Shown here in pieces: positions 1,122-15,511 of a DNA stretch of 50,961 nt. The translations under genes were made by a program, and so were the position numbers. Source of the DNA: Tannerella sp. (lineage in GTDB: Bacteria; Bacteroidota; Bacteroidia; Bacteroidales; Tannerellaceae); NCBI GenBank assembly GCA_031277335.1, contig JAITMM010000014.1:1-50961 (forward strand), written 5' to 3'. The notes beneath the pieces are model-generated. The model was not told the DNA's origin. It made no database searches and saw only the letters and a program-made list of their open reading frames with translations. How positions within the stretch are numbered: position 1 is the first letter of the stretch; each line of letters begins with the position of its first letter.

Positions 1122-2924
1122 ATGTCAAGAGCAACACAACCTTACAGACGATCATTCGGGTCGTCACTGGGATCCGGAATGGGTTCCTTATTCGGCGGTT
1201 CGGGAAGAAAGTATTTTATTCTCGAACACAAAACAAGTTCCAAGTATCACCGAGCAGGTGAATCACAGGAAATTATTGTAGATCAAATTGAAATCGGCCG
1301 CGACCCTAAATGCCAGGTGCGATTCGATGATTCATTTACGACAGTCAGCCGGCGACATGCCGCAATCGTCAGAACGGGAGATAGATGGAAGCTGATACAA
1401 CTATCCACAACAAATCCGACATTCCTCAACGGCGTAAAAGTCGATAGCGAATGGATGCTGCAAAACGGAGACGAAATCCAGCTTGCCGTAGGCGGCCCCA
1501 AACTTGGGTTTATCACCCCGATGGGAAATAATGCGGCTGTAGGCAGCCTGAAATTGACGCGGCGATTCAATCTTTTCCGCCAGCAAGCGTTGCGTCCGTA
1601 TAAAACGGCTATCACCCTGCTGACCATCGCTTTAGTCCTGGTATTGCTCGGTTCGGTCGGCTGGGGCTATTATTCCTATCAAAAACAGGAAAAGCTGCTC
1701 GTTGAGAATGAGAGACTTGGAAAAGAATTGGACGAACTCAACAAACGTGCCGATTCAATATCCGACAAATCATCGGCCGAATATCAGGAAATTGTCAAAC
1801 AGACAGAGCAGGTGGCCACGAGACTGGCTCAAAGCAACAGTCAGCTATACGCCGAAAACAGACGCACGCGTCGTGATTTTGAAGAGCTTCAAAATCAGAT
1901 GGCTGCCGATGAAAGTGACGCATCTCCTGCCTCAGGCACTTCATCGTCAGGCAGCTCAACATCCTCAGGCTCAACTGCTGCCGGCAGAAGCAGCGGCGGG
2001 GCTGCAAGAACAGGTGCTGCCGCCGGCAATACATCTGCTTCAGCCGAATCAGGCGCCGCAGGCATCCATGGCGAAGCGCTGCAAGGCACTCGCGAAGCAG
2101 GTGAAAATACAGTCGGCAACGCGCTGCCATCAGCAAGAGACATCAATAGTTATAGTGGATATGTCTTTGCTATTCAGTTGGAAAAGACAGAAATCACTTG
2201 GCGTGGCAAGACTACGATCATTACAGAACCGCTTCCAAAACTCGTAGGGACAGGCTTTCTGATGAATGACGGACGTTTTGTCACTGCGCGTCATGTGCTT
2301 GAGCCATGGTACTATTACCATTTAAAATTGGATTATTCCATTTTTACCGTTTATTCCAATCCGACGTATCGTCTTGATATGTTGAATATGTACGCCAATA
2401 ATGGAGGTACCGTCATTGCGCATTATACGGCAGTATCAAGCTCGGGTAAAAGAATTGCTTTTAACAGTAGCTTAGCCAGGGTCAACAGGACGACGGACAG
2501 GGTTGAAAGCGCCAAAATAGGCAAAATATCGGGAGTGACGCGGAAAGCCTTGCTCGACGACACCGATTGGGCTGTGTATCAAACTCTTGAGAGAAGCGGT
2601 TTTACACATAACAGTACGCTTTCAATGAATCTCGACATCGGGACAGTGTTGTCGGTACAAGGTTATCCGTGGGGACGTGGCGCTGACGAAGCCGTGCAGG
2701 TCACGCCTATCTACTCCGTCTGCAACGTGGCAAGAAATGGATTGGACGTGAATGGCACCATCATGGTTTCAAACGACAATACGGAGCGTGGCAACGACGG
2801 CGGCCCTGTAACCGTAGTCAATGAAGAAGGTGTCTATCAGGTTGTTGGAATCCTTTCCGGCAGCACATTTGCCAAGGGACGCATTATCCCAATATCAGTC
2901 GTCTATTCGCAAGCCTCACAATAA
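1122..2924 (+). CDS. FHA domain - transmembrane - trypsin-like pseudo-protease
   Basis: Predicted single-pass inner-membrane protein. A cytoplasmic FHA domain (about residues 50-125; IGRDPK, SRRH, NPTFLNG) is followed by a membrane helix (about 162-185), a charged coiled-coil-like stretch (about 186-265), a Ser/Ala/Gly-rich linker (about 266-310) and a trypsin-like fold (about 345-600), presumably periplasmic. His391 in VTARHVL and Asp482 in DTDWAVY sit where a catalytic His and Asp belong. The nucleophile motif reads GNDGGP, with Asp559 replacing the Ser of GNSGGP. I infer that the domain is catalytically dead and acts as a binding or sensing module, while the FHA domain docks phosphorylated kinase partners. 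It lies 7 bases upstream of the phosphatase gene, so the two are probably cotranscribed. Domain calls are firm; function is inferred. Confidence 0.9.
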   Translation: MSRATQPYRRSFGSSLGSGMGSLFGGSGRKYFILEHKTSSKYHRAGESQEIIVDQIEIGRDPKCQVRFDDSFTTVSRRHAAIVRTGDRWKLIQLSTTNPTFLNGVKVDSEWMLQNGDEIQLAVGGPKLGFITPMGNNAAVGSLKLTRRFNLFRQQALRPYKTAITLLTIALVLVLLGSVGWGYYSYQKQEKLLVENERLGKELDELNKRADSISDKSSAEYQEIVKQTEQVATRLAQSNSQLYAENRRTRRDFEELQNQMAADESDASPASGTSSSGSSTSSGSTAAGRSSGGAARTGAAAGNTSASAESGAAGIHGEALQGTREAGENTVGNALPSARDINSYSGYVFAIQLEKTEITWRGKTTIITEPLPKLVGTGFLMNDGRFVTARHVLEPWYYYHLKLDYSIFTVYSNPTYRLDMLNMYANNGGTVIAHYTAVSSSGKRIAFNSSLARVNRTTDRVESAKIGKISGVTRKALLDDTDWAVYQTLERSGFTHNSTLSMNLDIGTVLSVQGYPWGRGADEAVQVTPIYSVCNVARNGLDVNGTIMVSNDNTERGNDGGPVTVVNEEGVYQVVGILSGSTFAKGRIIPISVVYSQASQ

Positions 2925-2931
2925 TAATTAA

Positions 2932-4002
2932 ATGAGTGTAATTAAGATTGCTATGGCGGCCCGTTGCGAAGCGGCGGGCCGCCCAAACAATGAAGACAAT
3001 TTCCATCTGCACGACAATCTGTCAGGCAACCAATGGGGGTTCATGACAGACAAAGAAGTGACTTTGAACGAAAAAGGCGCTTTGATGGTGGTTTGTGACG
3101 GTATGGGCGGCATGAACGCAGGCGATACGGCATCAAGACTGGCCGTTGAAGCAATAAAGGAGTGGTTCGCTACTGACCGATTGACGCCTACGATCTTTGC
3201 CTCGCATGAGACCGTCATGTCATATATCGAACAGGCAATCATCGGCGCCGATTCTAAAATCAAAGAAGCCGAAAAAGACAATAATGCCCTTGAAGGCATG
3301 GGTAGCACTATAGTACTCGCATGGGTCATAGGTGATTATATTTATATCGGATGGTGTGGTGACAGTCGTGCGTATCGCTATAATCCTGCTACGGGTTTAG
3401 AACAGCTGTCGCATGACCATTCGTATGTACAGGATTTGGTGGATAGCGGGAAATTATCAAAAGAATTGGCTTTTGACCACCCCAACAACAATATCGTCAC
3501 GCGCAGTCTTGGAGATATCCGGCAAGTGGCCGAGCCATCCGTCAAATGTTTTCCTAACGGCAACGGAGACGTCATCCTTTTATGCAGCGACGGACTAAGC
3601 GGCGTCCTGCGCGACCCGGAAATAGCCAACATCATCCAAAACAATTCGCAGACGATGGAGAGTTGCCGTAACGCTTTATGGACGGAGTCCGAGAAGGCCG
3701 GATGGACTGACAACGTGACTATTGCGCTATGCCAAATCATCTCAGGCGTCGAACAGCCGAAATCGGATTTTGAACTTCCGGCTACGGGCATCAACCCTGC
3801 AAAGACTGAAACTGAGGTGATTGAGAAGATAATGAACGGCAACAGAACAGAACCTGTCAAGAAGAAAAACAACCGGTTGCTGCTAATCATTATCTTACTT
3901 TTATTGCTTGGCGCAGCTTTCGAAGCAGGCCATTATATAGTCAAAAAACGCATTTGGAATCCTCTGGATATGATTGAACAGGTGATGCCGGGCAAAAAAT
4001 AA
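2932..4002 (+). CDS. PP2C-family Ser/Thr phosphatase with C-terminal membrane anchor
   Basis: Metal-dependent PPM/PP2C phosphatase that removes phosphate from Ser/Thr and probably reverses the neighbouring kinases. The family motifs appear in order: RPNNEDNF near the N-terminus, VVCDGMGGMNAG, WCGDSRAYRY, LLCSDGLSG and TDNVTIAL. Their Asp residues are those that bind the two metal ions, so the enzyme looks active. A basic linker leads to one hydrophobic helix near the C-terminus (about residues 313-335, RLLLIIILLLLLGAAF), which would hold the catalytic domain on the cytoplasmic face of the inner membrane. The gene lies 7 bases after the FHA/pseudo-protease gene and 8 bases before a kinase gene, so expression as one unit is likely. 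Confidence 0.95.
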   Translation: MSVIKIAMAARCEAAGRPNNEDNFHLHDNLSGNQWGFMTDKEVTLNEKGALMVVCDGMGGMNAGDTASRLAVEAIKEWFATDRLTPTIFASHETVMSYIEQAIIGADSKIKEAEKDNNALEGMGSTIVLAWVIGDYIYIGWCGDSRAYRYNPATGLEQLSHDHSYVQDLVDSGKLSKELAFDHPNNNIVTRSLGDIRQVAEPSVKCFPNGNGDVILLCSDGLSGVLRDPEIANIIQNNSQTMESCRNALWTESEKAGWTDNVTIALCQIISGVEQPKSDFELPATGINPAKTETEVIEKIMNGNRTEPVKKKNNRLLLIIILLLLLGAAFEAGHYIVKKRIWNPLDMIEQVMPGKK

Positions 4003-4010
4003 ATCTGATT

Positions 4011-5405
4011 ATGCTGCTTCAAGAGGACATATTGTTTGATAATCGCTATCTGCTGAAACGACTGTTGGGATGCGGCGGGTTTTCCGAAGTCTGGCTTGTG
4101 GAAGACACCAAAGTCGGCAACAAGAAGATGGCCTTGAAGATATTTGTCCCTGAAAGAGGGCTGGATGACAATGGTGTACAGCTCTTTAGCAGCGAGTTTG
4201 AATTGGTGTTCGATTTGAATCATACAAATTTGATGCGCCCGTCTCATTTCAATGTCTGCGAACGCTCGCCTTATCTCTTAATGCCTTACAGCGAGCAAGG
4301 TTCTGTCAATAAATTAGTTGGCCTGATTGCCGACGATGATGCCTGGCGATTGCTTCATGACGTGGCGTCAGGACTGGAATATTTGCACGGCCAGCATCCG
4401 CCCATTATTCACCAGGACATAAAACCCGATAATATATTGATCGATCAATCAGGTCATTATCAGATAACCGACTTCGGTATAAGCACAAAAACGCGCAGTA
4501 CGCTGCGCAAGAGCGTGGGCGAAGCAAAAATGTCAATGACAGTGGCCTATTCGCCGCCCGAACGGTTTGGCCAGCATAATGCGGCCATTCCGGCAAGTGA
4601 TATCTGGTCGCTTGGAGCCACTATGTTTGAATTGCTTACGGGAGAAATGCCATTCCATGACCATGGAGGCCTGATTCAGAAGCATGGAGCCGAAATCCCG
4701 TTGATTCATGGAGACAGGTCGTCCGATTTAATCGGAATCATCACAATGTGTCTTTCGGTAGATATCGAACAAAGGCCTACTGCAGAGCAAATTGTAACAT
4801 GGACAAATCAACATTTCAAGGGAGCAAAAATCGTTTTTGAGCAAAAAAAAATTGCTACAAAACAGAATTTACGTCAGGCGGCAACGGGAGATGTGCCAAA
4901 TCCGAGCAAATCTTCGTCGAAAAAAATGATCGGGATCGTGGCAGGTTCTGTTTTACTTATTTGTCTGGCGATTACGTTCGTTTTCGTCAAACCGGGACAA
5001 TCCGATATTGTTTCTACGAATGAACATATTGGTATTGAGATAGATAGCTCGGAAATAAACCCTGCGGCAGATACGATAAGTTCGGAAGCGGACTACGATG
5101 CTTCTTCGACGGAAATTGCGCCTATAAATCAGCCGTCTGAAGAGCGTGACAACGCTGTTAATCAGCCTCCGATAGAAGCGCGTAGCGTCCTGAATCAGCC
5201 CTTGGTCGAAACCTCAACCTCAACAAAAATCTCTCGCCTCTATGAGCATGACGAGACATTGATTTCCGAATCGGGAGAACAGTTTCAAGTCAAAGCAGGC
5301 GATTCGTTTCAAGGCGAAATGAGGCAGGACAAGATTATTCAAGGCAAGATAATCGATCAAACAGGCAAAGTGAAGCATTTAATTCTACCTAAAAAAAATA
5401 ATTGA
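4011..5405 (+). CDS. Membrane-anchored Ser/Thr protein kinase (copy 1)
   Basis: Transmembrane Ser/Thr kinase. The glycine-rich loop GCGGFSEVW, Lys43 (MALKIF), the catalytic loop IIHQDIKPDN with Asp136, Asp154 of DFG, and SPPERF are all present, so activity is expected. The loop has HQD rather than HRD, which makes it a non-RD kinase. After a basic juxtamembrane region one helix (about residues 306-327) leads to a ~135-residue extracytoplasmic tail rich in Asn, Gln, Ser and acidic residues, with no recognised domain. The first ~160 residues are nearly identical to the kinase at 8919-10592, but the tails differ. The gene follows PP2C by 8 bases and its TGA shares one base with the ATG of the next, secreted protein. 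Confidence 0.95.
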   Translation: MLLQEDILFDNRYLLKRLLGCGGFSEVWLVEDTKVGNKKMALKIFVPERGLDDNGVQLFSSEFELVFDLNHTNLMRPSHFNVCERSPYLLMPYSEQGSVNKLVGLIADDDAWRLLHDVASGLEYLHGQHPPIIHQDIKPDNILIDQSGHYQITDFGISTKTRSTLRKSVGEAKMSMTVAYSPPERFGQHNAAIPASDIWSLGATMFELLTGEMPFHDHGGLIQKHGAEIPLIHGDRSSDLIGIITMCLSVDIEQRPTAEQIVTWTNQHFKGAKIVFEQKKIATKQNLRQAATGDVPNPSKSSSKKMIGIVAGSVLLICLAITFVFVKPGQSDIVSTNEHIGIEIDSSEINPAADTISSEADYDASSTEIAPINQPSEERDNAVNQPPIEARSVLNQPLVETSTSTKISRLYEHDETLISESGEQFQVKAGDSFQGEMRQDKIIQGKIIDQTGKVKHLILPKKNN

Positions 5406-6529
5406 TGGGCAAGCGGTTAGTTTTTATAATGGTTTTATCTGGTTGCATGTTGTCTGCCTCTTATCCTCAGGCTTTCTCAACACGCAAGTTATCAGATATA
5501 TATCAATTATTCCCAAATATCGGTTTGCCGTTGAAAGACAGCATTTTCGGTTGTGCGCAGGTCACAACGGCCAAGTCGCTTGTGATCGGCTATAACAAGA
5601 ATAATGAAATCAACCATTTAGGCGTCTCATTATTCAGCCCCGAAAGCAAGCAGATGATAGGCATTCCGGTTTGTAATTTTATTGAGCAGACCATGCTCGT
5701 ATTGCAGTTGCAAAAGTCTTCGCAAGACGTCAGGTATAAACTTAATGAATATGGCATGCGTCTGCGAAAGAATGGATTTGATTTCGGAAGCCGGTCATTT
5801 GATTCGATAAATAATATGCTCACGGATTTGCAAAATCCGGCAGATTTCTCCTTACAAAAAGATTCAATCTATTCTGTTTTATGGCAATTTGGTGATAATC
5901 AATCATTCAGTATGTCGTTTCCTATCTCTCGCGAACAGATATTCGGGACGGACAAAATGGAATCCGACGAAAAAATAAGCGAGTCGCTTGTGCAGGACAA
6001 TTGCAGCAAAATCCTCCATCCGGAAAGTCCGGAATCAATTGCCGAAAACGAACTGTCTCTAATACAAGGCACTGATATATACAGACGTAAAGGCTTGACA
6101 CTGATAAATAACAGCGATGTCAATACAGACACGTATTATCAGCGCTCCGACAGACAATACAGTCTTGTTTTCGACACCGATCATCCAAATGAATCATTAG
6201 TCAACTTATTCCTCAACAATCAGATAGACAATTCCTTGATGTTGAAAATTTCGCATCGCAAATATGGTGGTTTCAGTCCCGCTCTGACTATTCCTCTCAA
6301 TCGTTTTATATGTCTTTTCGAGGATGAATTTACTACGTTTTGCCTGCTGCGTAAATCAAATAACGATCTGATTAATATGTCAGTAATCTTATTCAACAAA
6401 AATTTCGATTTTGTTCATCTGCTGCGTGTGTCAGCGGACCGGCAGCAATTGTTCTCTGCCGACGGCACGTTGACGGCCGACTTTTACACAAACATACCTT
6501 TTCATAATATAAAAAACTTATTTGAATGA
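5405..6529 (+). CDS. Secreted protein of unknown function, coupled to kinase copy 1
   Basis: I do not recognise a family. The ORF track begins at a TTG at 5402. I prefer the ATG at 5405, which overlaps the kinase TGA as TGATG and begins MGKRLVFIMVLSGCMLSAS, a good signal peptide. The mature ~350 residues have no further membrane helix and alternate hydrophobic and polar residues in a way that suggests beta structure. The one-base overlap implies translational coupling with the membrane kinase, so this is a plausible periplasmic partner or sensor for that kinase's outer tail. That role is inferred from arrangement only. Confidence 0.75.
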   Translation: MGKRLVFIMVLSGCMLSASYPQAFSTRKLSDIYQLFPNIGLPLKDSIFGCAQVTTAKSLVIGYNKNNEINHLGVSLFSPESKQMIGIPVCNFIEQTMLVLQLQKSSQDVRYKLNEYGMRLRKNGFDFGSRSFDSINNMLTDLQNPADFSLQKDSIYSVLWQFGDNQSFSMSFPISREQIFGTDKMESDEKISESLVQDNCSKILHPESPESIAENELSLIQGTDIYRRKGLTLINNSDVNTDTYYQRSDRQYSLVFDTDHPNESLVNLFLNNQIDNSLMLKISHRKYGGFSPALTIPLNRFICLFEDEFTTFCLLRKSNNDLINMSVILFNKNFDFVHLLRVSADRQQLFSADGTLTADFYTNIPFHNIKNLFE

Positions 6530-6548
6530 AAATTAATATATTAACGAT

Positions 6549-7544
6549 ATGAAACTCAATAATATCCTATTTTTGTTTTTTGCAATTTTGACGGCAATCC
6601 AACATGTAGATGCGCAATCTGAAAGATGCAAGTTAGTGATTACCGATGGACTTGGTAATGAGCAGTTAAGGCTCAGGATTGAGCAAAATGTTTCTGCATT
6701 TCTTTCTGCCTGCAATACTGCGGTCATCGATGGGAAAAAGCCTGATCTGGATAGCAAAACGACTACCGGCGATGCCAGGAAGCGTTTTTATTCGATTTGG
6801 GAAACAAGTCCGATCGGGTGCAGCGCTGCATCTGCGCTTGAACGAAAATGCCTGACACGCCCTGCGGGCGGCTATCAGATACGCGATATCCCGGTCACCA
6901 TGCTCTCAGCGCCGGAATCGGAACGTAACCAGGAAATTGTTATAAATCTGACATCCAACGGCCTCATTGACGATATTTTCATCCCAATCAGCCAATACTC
7001 CGACCTGTTAAGCGCCAATGAAGAAGCCGAAGATATAGATTTGAGAATGAGGGTATTGGATTTTGTGGAGAATTACAGAACAGCTTATAATCGCAGAGAC
7101 ATAGATTTTATTGAGACGGTCTTCAGCAACAATGCCGTCATTATCGTGGGCAAAGCAATCAAACAAAAGCCCAAATCAGACGTGGCACTTCGTTCGTCAA
7201 TTTCGACGGCTCAATTTGAATATCAGGTAAAAAACAAGCAGCAATATATTACTGCTCTGAGAAATGTATTCAAAGTAAACAAATATCTCGACGTCCGGTT
7301 CGACGAAATAACCGTGCTCCAACATGAAAATTATCCTAAGGTTTATGGCGTCACTCTGAAGCAGTTGTGGAATTCTGACGCCATTAAAAATGAAGTAGGC
7401 TATGTGTTTTTACTTATCGATTTCAGAGACGAACAGCAGCCACTGATACATGTTCGCACTTGGCAACCTGACCAATATGACGGTCGACAGTTGAAAAGAG
7501 ACGAGATTTTTCAGATCGGCAGTTTTGATTTAAATAGATTTTAA
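6549..7544 (+). CDS. Secreted protein with C-terminal NTF2-like domain
   Basis: Exported protein with signal peptide MKLNNILFLFFAILTAIQHVDA and a likely cut before the Gln. The N-terminal half (about residues 25-150) is unrecognised and contains a Cys-rich patch around SPIGCSAASALERKC. The C-terminal half (about 160-325) looks like a nuclear-transport-factor-2/SnoaL fold: FVENYRTAYNRRDIDFIETVF is the typical first helix, followed by alternating strands ending in IHVRTWQP. Such domains bind small ligands or dimerise. It starts 19 bases after the preceding secreted-protein gene and belongs to the same kinase-linked string. The domain call rests on pattern only. Confidence 0.7.
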   Translation: MKLNNILFLFFAILTAIQHVDAQSERCKLVITDGLGNEQLRLRIEQNVSAFLSACNTAVIDGKKPDLDSKTTTGDARKRFYSIWETSPIGCSAASALERKCLTRPAGGYQIRDIPVTMLSAPESERNQEIVINLTSNGLIDDIFIPISQYSDLLSANEEAEDIDLRMRVLDFVENYRTAYNRRDIDFIETVFSNNAVIIVGKAIKQKPKSDVALRSSISTAQFEYQVKNKQQYITALRNVFKVNKYLDVRFDEITVLQHENYPKVYGVTLKQLWNSDAIKNEVGYVFLLIDFRDEQQPLIHVRTWQPDQYDGRQLKRDEIFQIGSFDLNRF

Positions 7545-7568
7545 ACATAAAAATAATAAATAAAAGTC

Positions 7569-8879
7569 ATGAAAAAAATATTTGTATTGATTTTACTTTT
7601 TACATCGCTGTGCGTCTATGCACAGCGGAATTTAGGTTATGAAGACCGTTCAATGGATAATGCCGTGTTTGGCGGGCAAACAAATGAGGCATGTGTGACA
7701 TTTTCAGCGCCTACCAATTTGAAACCTTTGTTTTTTAGTTCAAATATACAAAAATTACCTGCAAAAATCGATACCATTGGCACGGACATCAATTACCATC
7801 TGGTTTTTGATGCAAGTAAGGGCAGAGAAAGCCGGACGATCAGCATTCGCGTTCAGGGTTTTTCTCCGCTCTCACTGTCCGTCTGGCTGACGCCCAAGAA
7901 GCAACTGAATTTTTTTCTGTATGACCCTGATTCCACGATAGTCGGCTGCTACTATCAGTTATCAAAAGAAGGCGCCGACTTTTTTGCAAAAGGGATGTAT
8001 ATGGAAGCTAAGGAAAAATATACGTCGGCCATGCAGTGTAAAACCGACTTCAAACCTGAATATGAAGCCGTTCTCAATCAAAAAATAACCATTATCGATT
8101 CAATTCTGTTCCTTAAACCGCTTGCCGATGCGAGCTTCGACCTATTGGATTATAAGACGGCTTATGATCTTTATTTTCAGATATATTCGTATAATGTAGA
8201 CGATAGGACGGTCGCGGATAGATTGACGCTTTGCTCGCAGAAAATGTATGAAAACTGTAAAATATACTTCACCAATGCCGAAAATTATCAAAAAAACGGG
8301 GAAAACGAAAAGGCTATAGAATTATACCAACGTGTTGTAGATCAGGGATGTAGTCAATCAGTCACAGCCAACCTGCGAATACAGGAAATTTATGATGCCA
8401 CTGTCATCAATAAAACGGCCACAACACTAACTTATGAATACGAAAAAGACGCCCCGATAGGATTTTCGATAGGAAAGTATAAAGACCGCAAAAGCAACGG
8501 ATATTTTACAATGCGTTTAAACTCAGAGGTTTTTGAAGCATTGAGATCAAATAACGATTCTCTGAAAAGACCTGAATTAAACATTTCTTTCGGATGGACG
8601 ATAAAAGTTGTCAAGCCGGTTTGGATATTTTTCGGACCCGGCTATACGGGCGTCGGAAAATATGAGGCTAAAGCCAATGCAAATGAAAATGACGAACTTA
8701 CATTAAAAATCAAAAGCGCCGTTTCGCCTGAAATAGGTCTTTTGGGCAAGATTGACCTTAGCGATGATGTAGGTATAGCATTTCGATACACCTTTCAATA
8801 CCGTTTTGCCTTGGAAAAGGAATCGATTGATTATATCGGCAAAATAAAACATGTGATAGGTATAGGGCTGTGTTTCTGA
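7569..8879 (+). CDS. Secreted TPR protein with possible outer-membrane beta-barrel end
   Basis: Signal peptide MKKIFVLILLFTSLCVYAQ. Residues ~30-125 are a beta-rich, unrecognised segment. Residues ~135-280 hold TPR-like helical pairs, for example FFAKGMYMEAKEKYTSAM and NGENEKAIELYQRVV, which usually mediate protein contacts. The last ~120 residues alternate aromatic and polar residues and end IGIGLCF, like the C-terminal strands of an outer-membrane barrel, although they are too short for a full barrel alone. It may bridge periplasmic components of the kinase island to the outer membrane; that is inference. It is 24 bases downstream of the NTF2-like gene and 39 bases before the second kinase. 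Confidence 0.72.
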   Translation: MKKIFVLILLFTSLCVYAQRNLGYEDRSMDNAVFGGQTNEACVTFSAPTNLKPLFFSSNIQKLPAKIDTIGTDINYHLVFDASKGRESRTISIRVQGFSPLSLSVWLTPKKQLNFFLYDPDSTIVGCYYQLSKEGADFFAKGMYMEAKEKYTSAMQCKTDFKPEYEAVLNQKITIIDSILFLKPLADASFDLLDYKTAYDLYFQIYSYNVDDRTVADRLTLCSQKMYENCKIYFTNAENYQKNGENEKAIELYQRVVDQGCSQSVTANLRIQEIYDATVINKTATTLTYEYEKDAPIGFSIGKYKDRKSNGYFTMRLNSEVFEALRSNNDSLKRPELNISFGWTIKVVKPVWIFFGPGYTGVGKYEAKANANENDELTLKIKSAVSPEIGLLGKIDLSDDVGIAFRYTFQYRFALEKESIDYIGKIKHVIGIGLCF

Positions 8880-8918: not shown

Positions 8919-10592
8919 ATGTTGCTTCAAGAAGATACACTTTTCGATAACCGCTATCTTTTAAAACGTTTACTGGGTTGTGGCGGATTTTCCGAAGTCT
9001 GGCTTGTGGAAGATACCAAAGTCGGCAACAAGAAGATGGCTTTGAAGGTGTATGTGCCTGAAAGAGGGCTTGATGACAACGGAGTGCAAATCTTCAGCAG
9101 CGAGTTTGAATTGGTCTTTGACCTCAATCACACCAATCTCATGCGTCCGTCGCATTTCGATGTCTGCGAACGATCTCCCTATCTGTTAATGCCTTATAGC
9201 GAGCAAGGTTCGGTCACCAGATTAGTTGGTCAAATATCCGAAGACGAAGCCTGGCAATTGCTTCACGATGTGGCGGCAGGGTTGGATTATTTGCACAGTC
9301 AGCAACCGCCCATCATTCATCAGGATATAAAACCGGATAATATACTGCTCGATCAATCAGGTCATTATCTGATATCCGACTTCGGGATCAGCACAAAAAC
9401 GCGCAGCACGCTGCGCAAAAGCATGAATGTCCCCAGATCGGGCGGCACGATGGCTTATATGCCTCCCGAACGCTTCGGAAAAGATAATTCGCCGATAAAA
9501 GCCAGCGATATATGGGCTGTCGGAGCGACTGTCTACGAACTGCTTGCCGGCGACATGCCTTTTGGCGAACATGGAGGATTGCTGCAAAAAAGCGGGTCGG
9601 AAATCCCGAATATTCCGGGAAAATGGTCGAAAGATATGGTCGAAATCGTTCATCGCTGCCTTCAGCAGGAACCTTGGAACAGACCTCTTGCTCATCAAAT
9701 TGTGGAATGGACTGACGCTCATTTTAAGGGCGAAAAAATAGTCTTCTCCACCAATAAGACAAAAAATCCGAATCGTAAGAATAAGAATATCTTTTGGATA
9801 ATCGGCGGAGGCATCGTTTTCTTAGTTGCCATAGCAGCTATTTCGTTTATTTTCTTGCTTCCACGTATCTTAAATAATAAACCGGAAACGGTCGGCATCG
9901 CCATCAACGAGGCCTCATCAACCGATGACTATGTCTCTACTCCTCAACCCTCGCCGACCGGATCCGGCGCCATCGCTGATTCGGCATTGTCTACAAACAC
10001 TGACGAACAGCTTCAACCGCAAACAAATACGCAGTCTCAACCGACTTCGCCGACGCCTGAGCGTTATAACACTCCGGCTCCCGAACCTGCCCCCGCCGCC
10101 GTTCAATCATGGATTACGGAATACGATCGTATTCTGACACTTGCGCAAGCAGCCTTTCGCAATAAGAATTTTGAACAGGCCAAGACCGAGTATAACCGCG
10201 CCTTGACACTTGCCAACCGTAATGGCGACAGGACAAAAGCTACTTTTGTGACAGGTCAGATTGACGAATGTACGAAGTTGATTGAAGAACAACGCAAAGC
10301 AGATGAAGATGCACGCCAACAAGCTATCCAACAACGTCTTGCAACATACAATACGTTTAACAATCAATTTACGCTTGGTTCCAATTTTCTGATCGTACAG
10401 GCAAAATCCAACAATCGATGGGGGATTATAAACCTGGAAGGTGAAGAAAAAGAAGCATTTACGTATTCGCAGGTATCTATCCGTCTGAAAAACAATGCTT
10501 ATGCCTTAAAAAACGAACAAGGCTGGACGGTATTTGACACTTCGGCTAATAAAGTCGCCACAAATCTTGAAAATTTAAATGATTATAGATAA
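8919..10592 (+). CDS. Membrane-anchored Ser/Thr protein kinase (copy 2) with TPR and WG-like outer domain
   Basis: Transmembrane Ser/Thr kinase and close paralogue of the gene at 4011. The kinase domain again has GCGGFSEVW, HQD at residue 136, DFG at 154 and MPPERF, so it should be active. A membrane helix (about residues 291-314, IIGGGIVFLVAIAAISFIF) is followed by a Thr/Pro/Gln-rich linker. A helical TPR-like segment comes next (about 400-485, FRNKNFEQAKTEYNRALTLA), then a terminal WG-repeat-like element (RWGIINLEGEEKEAFTYSQV). The outer region differs completely from copy 1, so the two kinases probably sense different inputs and share targets. The TAA overlaps by one base the ATG of the next gene. 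Confidence 0.95.
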   Translation: MLLQEDTLFDNRYLLKRLLGCGGFSEVWLVEDTKVGNKKMALKVYVPERGLDDNGVQIFSSEFELVFDLNHTNLMRPSHFDVCERSPYLLMPYSEQGSVTRLVGQISEDEAWQLLHDVAAGLDYLHSQQPPIIHQDIKPDNILLDQSGHYLISDFGISTKTRSTLRKSMNVPRSGGTMAYMPPERFGKDNSPIKASDIWAVGATVYELLAGDMPFGEHGGLLQKSGSEIPNIPGKWSKDMVEIVHRCLQQEPWNRPLAHQIVEWTDAHFKGEKIVFSTNKTKNPNRKNKNIFWIIGGGIVFLVAIAAISFIFLLPRILNNKPETVGIAINEASSTDDYVSTPQPSPTGSGAIADSALSTNTDEQLQPQTNTQSQPTSPTPERYNTPAPEPAPAAVQSWITEYDRILTLAQAAFRNKNFEQAKTEYNRALTLANRNGDRTKATFVTGQIDECTKLIEEQRKADEDARQQAIQQRLATYNTFNNQFTLGSNFLIVQAKSNNRWGIINLEGEEKEAFTYSQVSIRLKNNAYALKNEQGWTVFDTSANKVATNLENLNDYR

Positions 10593-11982: not shown

Positions 11983-12948
11983 ATGAAAATCAACTTATTA
12001 TCCCGGATATTATTTCTAAAAACGCTTAATTACATCGTTTCGTTGCTTTTCTCCTGTCTTGCTTTCACAAGCTGTCTTGAGACAACATCGGAAATTCCCA
12101 TCGAACTGTCGCTCTCCGTAAAATCGTTTAATTTGCCGCCGGAGGCTGTCGAAGAGTCTTTTTCGATCTACTCCAATACAAACAGCTGGACTGTTTCGAG
12201 CAGTTCGAACAATTGGCTGACGGTGTCTCCCGCCTCCGGACAAAAGGAAGGCAATGTGACAATTAGCGCTTCAGTCAACACGGTCACAACTCCGCGTTAT
12301 GCCGTCCTGACTGTCAGAGGCACCGGCGTGCCTGACCAGGAAATCCAAGTTATGCAGGAAGCAGCCGAACCTACGTTGAGCCTGTCAAAAACAGATTTGA
12401 CTTTCGCGGCTTCCGGCGGCCAAAACACGTTCAATATCACCTCCACAGGCAACTGGACGGTCAGCAGTAATTCGCCGACATGGCTTACGGTATCTCCTAC
12501 ATCAAGTTCGGGAAATAAAACAGTCACCGTCACGGCCTTCGCCAACACAATCCAATCGCCGCGTGCCGCAGTCATCACCGTGACGGCAGGAAATCAATCG
12601 CAACGCGTCAATGTGACTCAATTGGGAAGCACTGCGCCGACAAAGGCTCAGATAAGGTTTCAAAAGGCAAAAGCTTATCCCGAATGCACACAGATGGCCA
12701 TAGTTGCCGTCAACGAAACAGACATATTATCAAACTATTACTTCGGTACGCCATCAGGTACTTCGCCATACGAAGAAATCCCTTCCGGCTCTCATATCCC
12801 GGCATTTTCCGACGGCGTAAACTGGTATTATTGTTTCAACACCACGGTCAAAACGTATAACTTCCTGGCCGGCCGCCGATATACTCTGATCTGCAACGAC
12901 AACGGATCGAGTTTTGTCTTTACCGTAAGAGATGATGGAACGTTTTAA
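11983..12948 (+). CDS. Lipoprotein with two BACON domains
   Basis: Exported protein with a long hydrophobic N-terminus ending LLFSCLAFTSC, a relaxed Bacteroidetes-type lipobox. Two BACON-type beta-sandwich domains (about residues 40-125 and 128-215) each carry the NSWTVSSSSNNWLTVSP kind of signature and end in a QEIQVMQEA or QRVNVTQLG strand. BACON domains are associated with glycan or mucin binding in Bacteroidetes. The last ~100 residues are Tyr-rich and unrecognised. The gene is 11 bases after the Sel1 protein and probably in the same transcript. Cell-surface placement is inferred from the lipobox. Confidence 0.85.
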   Translation: MKINLLSRILFLKTLNYIVSLLFSCLAFTSCLETTSEIPIELSLSVKSFNLPPEAVEESFSIYSNTNSWTVSSSSNNWLTVSPASGQKEGNVTISASVNTVTTPRYAVLTVRGTGVPDQEIQVMQEAAEPTLSLSKTDLTFAASGGQNTFNITSTGNWTVSSNSPTWLTVSPTSSSGNKTVTVTAFANTIQSPRAAVITVTAGNQSQRVNVTQLGSTAPTKAQIRFQKAKAYPECTQMAIVAVNETDILSNYYFGTPSGTSPYEEIPSGSHIPAFSDGVNWYYCFNTTVKTYNFLAGRRYTLICNDNGSSFVFTVRDDGTF

Positions 12949-12958
12949 ATATAACATT

Positions 12959-15511
12959 ATGAGACAGAGGATATTATTATTGTGTACTGCGATTTTTTTC
13001 TCGACGCAGGTATGGGGAGAAATTAATATTCCCGCAGGCGTTGTTGCAAATCATAACATAAAGATTGATAGTGAAATAGAAATAACAGCTTACGCTAATT
13101 CGGTGATGATGACTGCGGCAGAATCGGATTTTGATGTTGTAAACAGTGTACTTGTCAATTACAACGGTACGGGTGGAAATATCGTGATACCCGGCAATTT
13201 GGGGATTATTGCTATAGGATATCAGGCTTTTCTGGGGAATCAGACGGTTACTTCGGTGGAGATTCCGCAGGGAGTAACACGTATAGAAACTTCGGCATTC
13301 AGCAGCTGCTCCAAAATGACTTCGGTCAAACTGCCTGACGGGCTAATCACAATCGGCGACAGGGCATTTTATAATTGTATTTCTCTGACTTCCATTGATA
13401 TACCAAAAAGCGTAAAAGGCATTGGCCAATGGACGTTTTTCAAATGTCCTGTGATGCGCGATGTCACAGCGCACTGGGACAAAGCGGCAGATATCCCCGA
13501 TGCACCGGCTTTTCTTGCTGTCGAATCCGCCAATGCCACGCTTCATGTTCCGGCAGGGATGAAATCAGCTTACCGGTACGCTTACGGATGGGAAGATTTC
13601 GGAGCATACATGGAAGAAAGCAGGGAAGAGATTATTTTGAATCATTGGTGTTGGTGGCTTAAACCCGGTGAAACACTTCAGCTTTCAGCAACTTCAACTT
13701 CTCAAAATCAAACTTTTACATGGAAATCAGATAATCAGACTGTGGCAACTGTAACCGGATCGGGACCAAATGCGACTGTAAAAGCTATATCACGTGGTAA
13801 TACTGTTATTCGTGTTTTTTCTCAAACCGGGAATGAAGGTCCATCATGTAGAATATTTGTTAATGATGATAATAATACATCAACTCATGGTTTTATTTCA
13901 TCTTTAAGCTATATGTACATTGGTCAAAAATACAAATTTGTTATGCAATCCGGTCCTGAAAATAAAACATTTGAGTGGATATCAAGTAATCCATCTATAG
14001 CTTCGGTTGATCAAGAAGGATTAGTAACTGCAATACGTAAAGGAACAGTTAATATTGGGATGGGCTATAATGGCTTTTTAGTAGCTTTTTATTCCGTATC
14101 AATTATAGACAAACAAACTGCCTTTAATTCATCAGATATTGAAACTTTAAAAAATTTTGTCAGACAGGATATTAATTATATTTCACTCGGTCTAAGTTCC
14201 GGTTGGGAAAATGATTCACAATGGTTTGAAAAAGTGGAAGGTGTACAATGGAAATATATCGAGAATGGTGCAAAAATGTATATTATGTATATAAATTGGA
14301 GTGGCCATAATGTAACCGGTAGGTTGGATGCTACAGGTTTTACAGCCCTTCAAAGTTTGAGTGTAAATAATACCAAAATATCAGAAATAAATGTCAGCGG
14401 TTTGCAAAACCTTAGTTATCTAGAATGTTCTAATATGGGGTTACTTAGGTATTTGGATGTAAGTAAAAATCCAAGTTTAAAGTATTTATACTGTTCGGGT
14501 AATATATTTAGTTTTAATACTTTACCAATTAAAGAAACAAAATATTCAAATTATCGGTACGCCCCTCAACTGACCGTCAACCTCCCTGCAAGCCCCGGTA
14601 AGGAAATTGACATGACTGACTATCTGCACAATAATAAAACCTTTTTCAAATGGTATCGTCAAAGTAATCTTACCACCCAATTAACTGATATCAAAGAATC
14701 AGGCGTCAAGGGAAAATTCCTTATTCCGGCAGGCTATGCCGACGCCGATTTGGTCTGCATGATGACAAACAGCGACTTTCCCGATTTCACCGGCGACAAT
14801 GCCCTGAAAGTCAGGGTGCATGTCGGCTCCAATACCGACGGAGCAATTGTTGCCGAGCAAAAATCGGACACAAATCCCGATACCGAATCAGTAGATATAA
14901 TATATGATATTCCCGACGGCGTAAACGGCTACGAAGTCACAATGCGAATCAAACTGCCCAAAGGCATCAGACCGGACGAGGCTTCATTGCAAAAAACTAT
15001 GGCACAGGGTAATTATGTATTCAGACTTATAGAAGAAGCAACAGACGGAATTTCTTCATGGTGGTTATTATCAATTTTCTACGATAACATCCCCTCTGCG
15101 CGTTCCATGCTCAGAGCCTCCGCTACGTCCGCTATTTTAAATCTCCCGTTACTCATTGACAAACAGTTGCCAAGCGGAAACTATATAGTCACTTTCAGAA
15201 ACATATTGCTGGCTTTCGATAACGGAACGCAACGCGTAGAACCGGAAATTCCAATAGTCCTCAGGATTGACCGCACAACCGCCACAGAACGTATTGATCA
15301 AACGGCGGTTCAGTCCTACATTTATAATAACAAGCTGTATATCAATAGCCCCAATGCCGAATCCATCCGTATATATTCGATTACCGGCATGTTATTGCAA
15401 ACCGCCCAAAAACCGTCAGGCGTCTTCCAAATGCCGCTTAACGGATTGAAAAACGGCATCCTTATCATCACCGGAAGCTCCGGCTGGGCACGCAAAGCAG
15501 TGAAAAATTAA
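12959..15511 (+). CDS. BspA-like LRR/Ig-like surface protein with T9SS sorting tail
   Basis: I start at the ATG at 12959 (MRQRILLLCTAIFFSTQVWG), which gives a clean signal peptide; the track's ATG at 12932 overlaps the previous gene. BspA/LRR_5 repeats such as VTRIETSAFSSCSKMTSVKL occupy about residues 75-190. Two Ig-like BIG2 domains follow (about 235-390; WKSDNQTVATV, WISSNPSIASV), then short LRRs (about 455-510; LQSLSVNN, LKYLYCSGN) and a beta-rich region. The C-terminus (IRIYSITGMLLQTA...LKNGILIITG) matches the type A T9SS sorting domain, so the protein is probably secreted by T9SS and fixed to the surface, where BspA proteins mediate adhesion. The central third (13640-14560) is strikingly AT-rich compared with both ends. 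Confidence 0.88.
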   Translation: MRQRILLLCTAIFFSTQVWGEINIPAGVVANHNIKIDSEIEITAYANSVMMTAAESDFDVVNSVLVNYNGTGGNIVIPGNLGIIAIGYQAFLGNQTVTSVEIPQGVTRIETSAFSSCSKMTSVKLPDGLITIGDRAFYNCISLTSIDIPKSVKGIGQWTFFKCPVMRDVTAHWDKAADIPDAPAFLAVESANATLHVPAGMKSAYRYAYGWEDFGAYMEESREEIILNHWCWWLKPGETLQLSATSTSQNQTFTWKSDNQTVATVTGSGPNATVKAISRGNTVIRVFSQTGNEGPSCRIFVNDDNNTSTHGFISSLSYMYIGQKYKFVMQSGPENKTFEWISSNPSIASVDQEGLVTAIRKGTVNIGMGYNGFLVAFYSVSIIDKQTAFNSSDIETLKNFVRQDINYISLGLSSGWENDSQWFEKVEGVQWKYIENGAKMYIMYINWSGHNVTGRLDATGFTALQSLSVNNTKISEINVSGLQNLSYLECSNMGLLRYLDVSKNPSLKYLYCSGNIFSFNTLPIKETKYSNYRYAPQLTVNLPASPGKEIDMTDYLHNNKTFFKWYRQSNLTTQLTDIKESGVKGKFLIPAGYADADLVCMMTNSDFPDFTGDNALKVRVHVGSNTDGAIVAEQKSDTNPDTESVDIIYDIPDGVNGYEVTMRIKLPKGIRPDEASLQKTMAQGNYVFRLIEEATDGISSWWLLSIFYDNIPSARSMLRASATSAILNLPLLIDKQLPSGNYIVTFRNILLAFDNGTQRVEPEIPIVLRIDRTTATERIDQTAVQSYIYNNKLYINSPNAESIRIYSITGMLLQTAQKPSGVFQMPLNGLKNGILIITGSSGWARKAVKN

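Follow-up and report, generated by a model that had tools for sequence, protein, structure and literature searches.

We hypothesize that the C-terminal trypsin-like domain of a membrane protein from Tannerella sp. has lost catalysis and is retained for binding in the periplasm, as part of a hub for Ser/Thr phosphorylation that spans the membrane, a reading to which we assign a probability of about 0.6. The gene lies in the window, by which we mean the whole 50,961-nucleotide stretch of DNA that was analysed. Pseudoproteases have been much studied in animals, and few bacterial ones are understood. A single Ser-to-Asp change would be an ordinary pseudoenzyme event, whereas repeated loss across a family, together with a link to a partner gene, is of more interest. 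Here, the catalytic triad was lost six times independently within one conserved cassette. Some of the genomes concerned also hold intact copies that serve as natural controls, a secreted partner co-evolves with the triad, and the family may serve as a pointer to a Bacteroidales phospho-signalling system acting across the inner membrane. An earlier note on this DNA had described the altered nucleophile; the family-wide loss, the intact paralogue in the same genome and the link between triad and partner are three points that go beyond it.

The features of the gene and its neighbours are given in Table 1. The FHA loop residues S76, R77, H79, T100 and N103 are invariant (alignment A1), and by its domain match and these conserved binding-loop residues the protein is predicted to bind phosphothreonine. 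An Arg/Lys-rich stretch lies ahead of the transmembrane (TM) helix, and therefore the C-terminus is expected in the periplasm. The kinase-FHA gene holds the same position in nearly all cassettes, and the gene order of kinase(-FHA), FHA-protease, PP2C and usually then a kinase is kept in loci with intact and with dead protease domains alike, as read from a crude motif scan.

Table 1. Coordinates of the FHA-protease gene, its parts and the neighbouring signalling genes in the window.
Feature	Coordinates	Strand	Evidence
Ser/Thr protein kinase with C-terminal FHA domain, truncated by contig start	1..1023	+	Pfam Pkinase 8.7e-30, FHA 3.5e-8
FHA - TM helix - coiled coil - low-complexity linker - trypsin-like pseudoprotease, 600 aa	1122..2924	+	ORF and Pfam
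FHA domain, residues 57-121, cytoplasmic side expected	1290..1484	+	Pfam 7.3e-17
Probable single TM helix, ~residues 161-184	1602..1673	+	read from sequence
Trypsin-like domain, residues 340-600	2139..2921	+	AlphaFold pLDDT 92.4, pTM 0.91; Foldseek
His391, catalytic His position kept	2292..2294	+	alignment, profile search
Asp482, catalytic Asp position kept	2565..2567	+	alignment
Asp559 (codon GAC) at nucleophile Ser position, inside GNDGGP 2790-2807	2796..2798	+	sequence, alignment
PP2C-type Ser/Thr phosphatase, C-terminal TM, directly 3' of the FHA-protease gene	2932..4002	+	Pfam PP2C_2 6.2e-16
Ser/Thr protein kinase	4011..5405	+	Pfam 3.1e-42
Further Ser/Thr kinase with TPR repeats, cassette membership uncertain	8919..10592	+	Pfam 3.3e-41

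The window domain is predicted to adopt the chymotrypsin fold. Residues 376-577 match Trypsin_2 (PF13365; E=1.5e-5) with a score of 26.2 bits, slightly below the gathering cut-off of 27.6, and a PDB search with the domain as a single sequence returned chance matches only. A structure model, which the earlier note had proposed as a check, was computed by AlphaFold from 81 family members and reached the confidence listed in Table 1; its Foldseek matches include DegP, urokinase (uPA), HtrA1, thrombin and similar proteases (probability 1.00), as the claim that the fold is kept had anticipated. The span first proposed for the domain, 2187-2924, corresponds to residues 356-600 plus the stop codon, so that its end holds and the real start lies further upstream, at about residue 340. 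In a profile search of the family, the His and Ser columns line up with the catalytic motifs of Deg proteases, and since the Ser column aligns with the Deg catalytic Ser motif, Asp559 is placed at the nucleophile position. His391, Asp482 and the change from GNSGGP to GNDGGP were all read correctly at the outset, in residues and in codons. The domain thus keeps His391 and Asp482 and, with Asp559 for Ser, lacks the complete His-Asp-Ser triad that defines an active S1 serine peptidase.

A paralogue on another contig of the window genome (C243) is 77% identical to the window protein and has the same GNDGGP, while about half of the third codon positions differ between the two. A third paralogue (C170) has an intact triad with GNSGGP. 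Ser is also found in the closest branches of the tree, and Asp559 is therefore the derived state. Between the window protein and its Asp-bearing paralogue, dN/dS is 0.08 in the trypsin-like domain, 0.23 in the linker and 0.71 in the low-complexity part of the linker. Judged from these comparisons, the Asp559 state is derived, fixed and constrained, and the window domain combines the conserved fold, lost catalytic residue and retained constraint by which a pseudoprotease is recognized. The earlier note had asked whether relatives share the Asp and had taken Ser in them as a possible sign of a single sequence error. The assembly is indeed fragmented (284 contigs), but the same residue occurs in a paralogue on a separate contig with many synonymous differences, and a change from Ser (AGC/TCN) to Asp (GAC) takes at least two base changes. 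We therefore reject a sequencing or assembly error, to which we give practically no credence, as refuted by the diverged Asp-bearing paralogue.

To place the window domain in its family, homologues were gathered from searches at the level of the family and of the order and from named genome contigs, which yielded 117 distinct proteins; the organisms named belong nearly without exception to the Bacteroidales or Bacteroidota, and one contig bears the label Clostridia. Culturable relatives with an intact cassette include Phocaeicola sartorii and Bacteroides sp. 519. The His-Asp-Ser triad is intact in 81/117 and broken in 36/117. In the order His, Asp, Ser, the larger classes of triad letters are HDS (81), QCL (10), RDS and SNT (7 each), and HDD, RDD and QSY (2 each), while HDI, KDA, SDA, SDS, RNS and QSL are each seen once. 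On a family tree computed without the triad columns, supported branches force six independent triad breakages (bootstrap range 6-6). The Ser-to-Asp change itself has at least two origins, one in the window pair and one in L081/L186, where the His is also replaced by Arg. Loci L188-L195, in the wider family of G517, encode trypsin-like proteins that are more distantly related; their triads are intact and their FHA matches weak or missing.

It might be argued that the domain has kept an enzymatic activity in which Asp559 acts as the nucleophile or as general acid/base, or in which a Ser from another position has taken over, given that His391, Asp482 and the oxyanion-loop glycines are kept. We regard this as very improbable: the profile puts Asp559 in the catalytic Ser column, and other dead clades have also lost the residues at the His and/or Asp482 position. 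Asp is not known to act as the nucleophile in chymotrypsin-fold peptidases.

A second alternative is that the window copy is a redundant duplicate in simple decay, in which catalysis was lost after duplication of the cassette and the domain has been drifting since. The genome carries three to four related cassettes, one of them without any protease domain, and one dead pair in the family (L013/L014) is under weaker constraint, with a dN/dS of 0.26. However, the dN/dS of 0.08 between the two Asp-bearing copies was obtained with synonymous sites near saturation, the reading frames are intact and the fold is modelled with high confidence, and dead clades are conserved in many Prevotella-type genomes. 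Across the family, dN/dS of dead pairs is 0.04-0.26 vs. 0.02-0.10 for intact pairs, and several dead clades, at ~0.04-0.08, are close to intact ones; purifying selection still acts on most of the dead domains. Simple decay is accordingly improbable as an explanation. The proposal of a retained role rather than decay had been based on the flanking Gly residues, which are weaker ground than the selection seen after fixation of the Asp; on the latter ground the proposal stands, whereas the "binding or sensor" function attached to it would be one plausible form of such a role.

The fourth cassette (L051:3396-6351, on contig C134) consists of a kinase-FHA gene, a gene for a 185-aa FHA-TM protein, PP2C and a kinase. 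Its FHA-TM protein ends right after the TM helix and has no protease domain, and therefore the cytoplasmic part can stand alone and the periplasmic part is dispensable there. Of the observations that speak against an essential role for the periplasmic domain, this cassette carries the most weight. The same genome also holds an FHA fragment of this family (L005, C162:217-540) with two stop codons inside, probably a decaying copy.

Most intact loci contain an extra gene between protease and PP2C, which encodes a secreted-looking protein of ~280 aa without a Pfam match. Loss of the triad is associated with absence of this partner gene. A profile search found it at 69/79 readable intact loci vs. 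1/36 broken loci, plain counts that overstate the association since relatives are not independent. Five of the six triad-loss lineages also lack the gene. Among independent pairs on the tree, 5/6 went in the expected direction in most pairings, with none opposite and one tie, which gives a sign-test p of 0.0625, the lowest attainable with five informative pairs. A correlated-evolution likelihood-ratio test, of a type that can be over-confident, gave p ~5e-5, and 5e-4 without the large Prevotella-type dead clade. Models in which the triad or the partner is lost first (lnL -44.87 vs. -46.57) do not decide the order of loss.

The window locus lacks the partner gene, and the single copy in the window genome adjoins the intact C170 paralogue; in 9 + 19 genomes where all copies found were broken, whole-genome searches returned no partner homologue. 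The sole broken-triad locus with a partner, L181 (G741), has Arg, Asn and Ser at the triad positions and is a possible intermediate. Intact loci such as L068, L140 and L107 carry the gene, while ten intact loci are without it, and L117, L060, L061, L063, L067, L121 and L123, all with intact triads, have no partner gene anywhere in their genomes.

The partner is itself predicted to have a trypsin fold without a triad, and hence to be a pseudoprotease. Its AlphaFold model has a pLDDT of 87.4, and the top 50 Foldseek hits are all trypsin-fold (best E 1.9e-4, probability 1.00), with modest TM-scores of 0.3-0.4 by query. Comparison of the partner and FHA-protease profiles scored 29.6; the best of 30 column-shuffled controls reached 16.7 and the reversed profile 17.2. 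The alignment is local and covers only 28 columns. The partner columns matching the triad hold residues other than His, Asp or Ser and are not conserved. One partner (L053:1979-3838, minus strand) carries a fused outer-membrane beta-barrel at its C-terminus (OMP_b-brl_2, 4e-6), a sign that this one, at least, may reach the outer membrane.

Kinases set Thr phosphorylation, FHA domains read it and PP2C phosphatases reset it. We therefore propose that the window protein would sit in the inner membrane as a phospho-signalling protein, where its FHA domain, on the cytoplasmic side, would recognize phospho-Thr marks that the adjacent kinases add and the adjacent PP2C removes. The periplasmic trypsin-fold domain would act as sensor or effector, having lost catalysis by the Ser-to-Asp change at position 559. 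As it is not expected to cut, it most likely binds, presumably a periplasmic peptide or protein in the old substrate cleft, and binding could be coupled via the coiled coil and the TM helix to the FHA domain and kinase signalling. In intact cassettes, by contrast, the anchored domain should be an active protease, and the secreted pseudoprotease may be its dedicated regulator or client, which would become dispensable once the anchored domain stops cutting. An extension of this scheme, which we offer only tentatively and hold at less than even odds, is that an anchored protease worked together with a secreted pseudoprotease that shared its fold and was dedicated to it, and that, on catalytic loss, the partner was discarded and the anchored domain took over the binding role, a switch that would have occurred at least five times. 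The family makes two questions directly testable, namely the role of a protease fold after cutting ends and the purpose of a paired pseudoprotease.

Known systems offer partial parallels. In the animal serine protease homologues protein Z and HGF, a trypsin fold with a substituted triad is used for binding, and the Ser position is occupied by Asp in protein Z and by Tyr in HGF, as in some family members here; their architecture and the origin of the loss are unrelated. The best-described bacterial parallel that we found is MamO, an HtrA/Deg pseudoprotease of magnetotactic bacteria that binds metal and activates MamE; MamO and inactive MamE copies arose by repeated independent losses, and active and inactive copies co-occur (PMC4794232). 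The window family resembles MamO in its bacterial trypsin fold, degenerate active site, repeated loss and co-occurrence of active and inactive forms. In MamO, however, the oxyanion position is not occupied by Gly, whereas the window domain keeps the Gly there and has Asp in place of Ser, and MamO lies in magnetosome islands, whereas the window domain is fused to FHA-TM and has kinases and PP2C as neighbours. The kind of protein is a pseudoprotease comparable to MamO, while the architecture and the protease-pseudoprotease pairing are new. An active-type protease beside a predicted same-fold pseudoprotease, a candidate for a pair of the MamE/MamO type, is found in most intact cassettes and not at the window locus.

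This precedent, and the presence in the window genome of the intact C170 paralogue beside two Asp559 copies, could mean that the dead domain regulates its active paralogue, as hetero-oligomer or competitor of the intact FHA-protease. Some genomes, among them G086 (one contig, 99% complete) and G043 (96%), show only broken copies, and therefore no active partner of the same family is needed there. We regard regulation of a paralogue as unlikely and favour the binding domain coupled to the phosphorylation hub.

RsgI9 of Clostridium thermocellum, whose S1C peptidase-like ectodomain was reported to bind polysaccharide (PMC12203970), is likewise a single-pass membrane signalling protein with a protease-like outer domain, and Foldseek also matched its structure (7sjy) to the partner model. 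It differs in being a Firmicute anti-sigma factor without FHA, kinase or phosphatase. In vWA-MoxR ternary conflict systems, trypsin domains in the effector position are reported to be nearly all inactive and FHA domains occur (PMC7159879), a combination similar to that described here. Unlike these systems, the annotated neighbours in the window show no vWA, MoxR or VMAP match, and PADLOC returned only generic kinase matches and a weak RT-Protease_XI match (7e-7) among them; by signature neighbours and PADLOC, the window cassette belongs neither to the vWA-MoxR systems nor to another known defence system. NCBIfam and PADLOC gave it no system-level identity, and no description of an FHA-trypsin-PP2C cassette was found in the literature searched, which lay mostly outside subscription journals. 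Downstream of the second kinase, positions 5402-8879 encode three consecutive exported-looking proteins without a clear Pfam family, which could belong to the system. Further along, at 11983-15511, a BACON-domain protein followed by an LRR_5/Big_2 protein is encoded beside the signalling genes.
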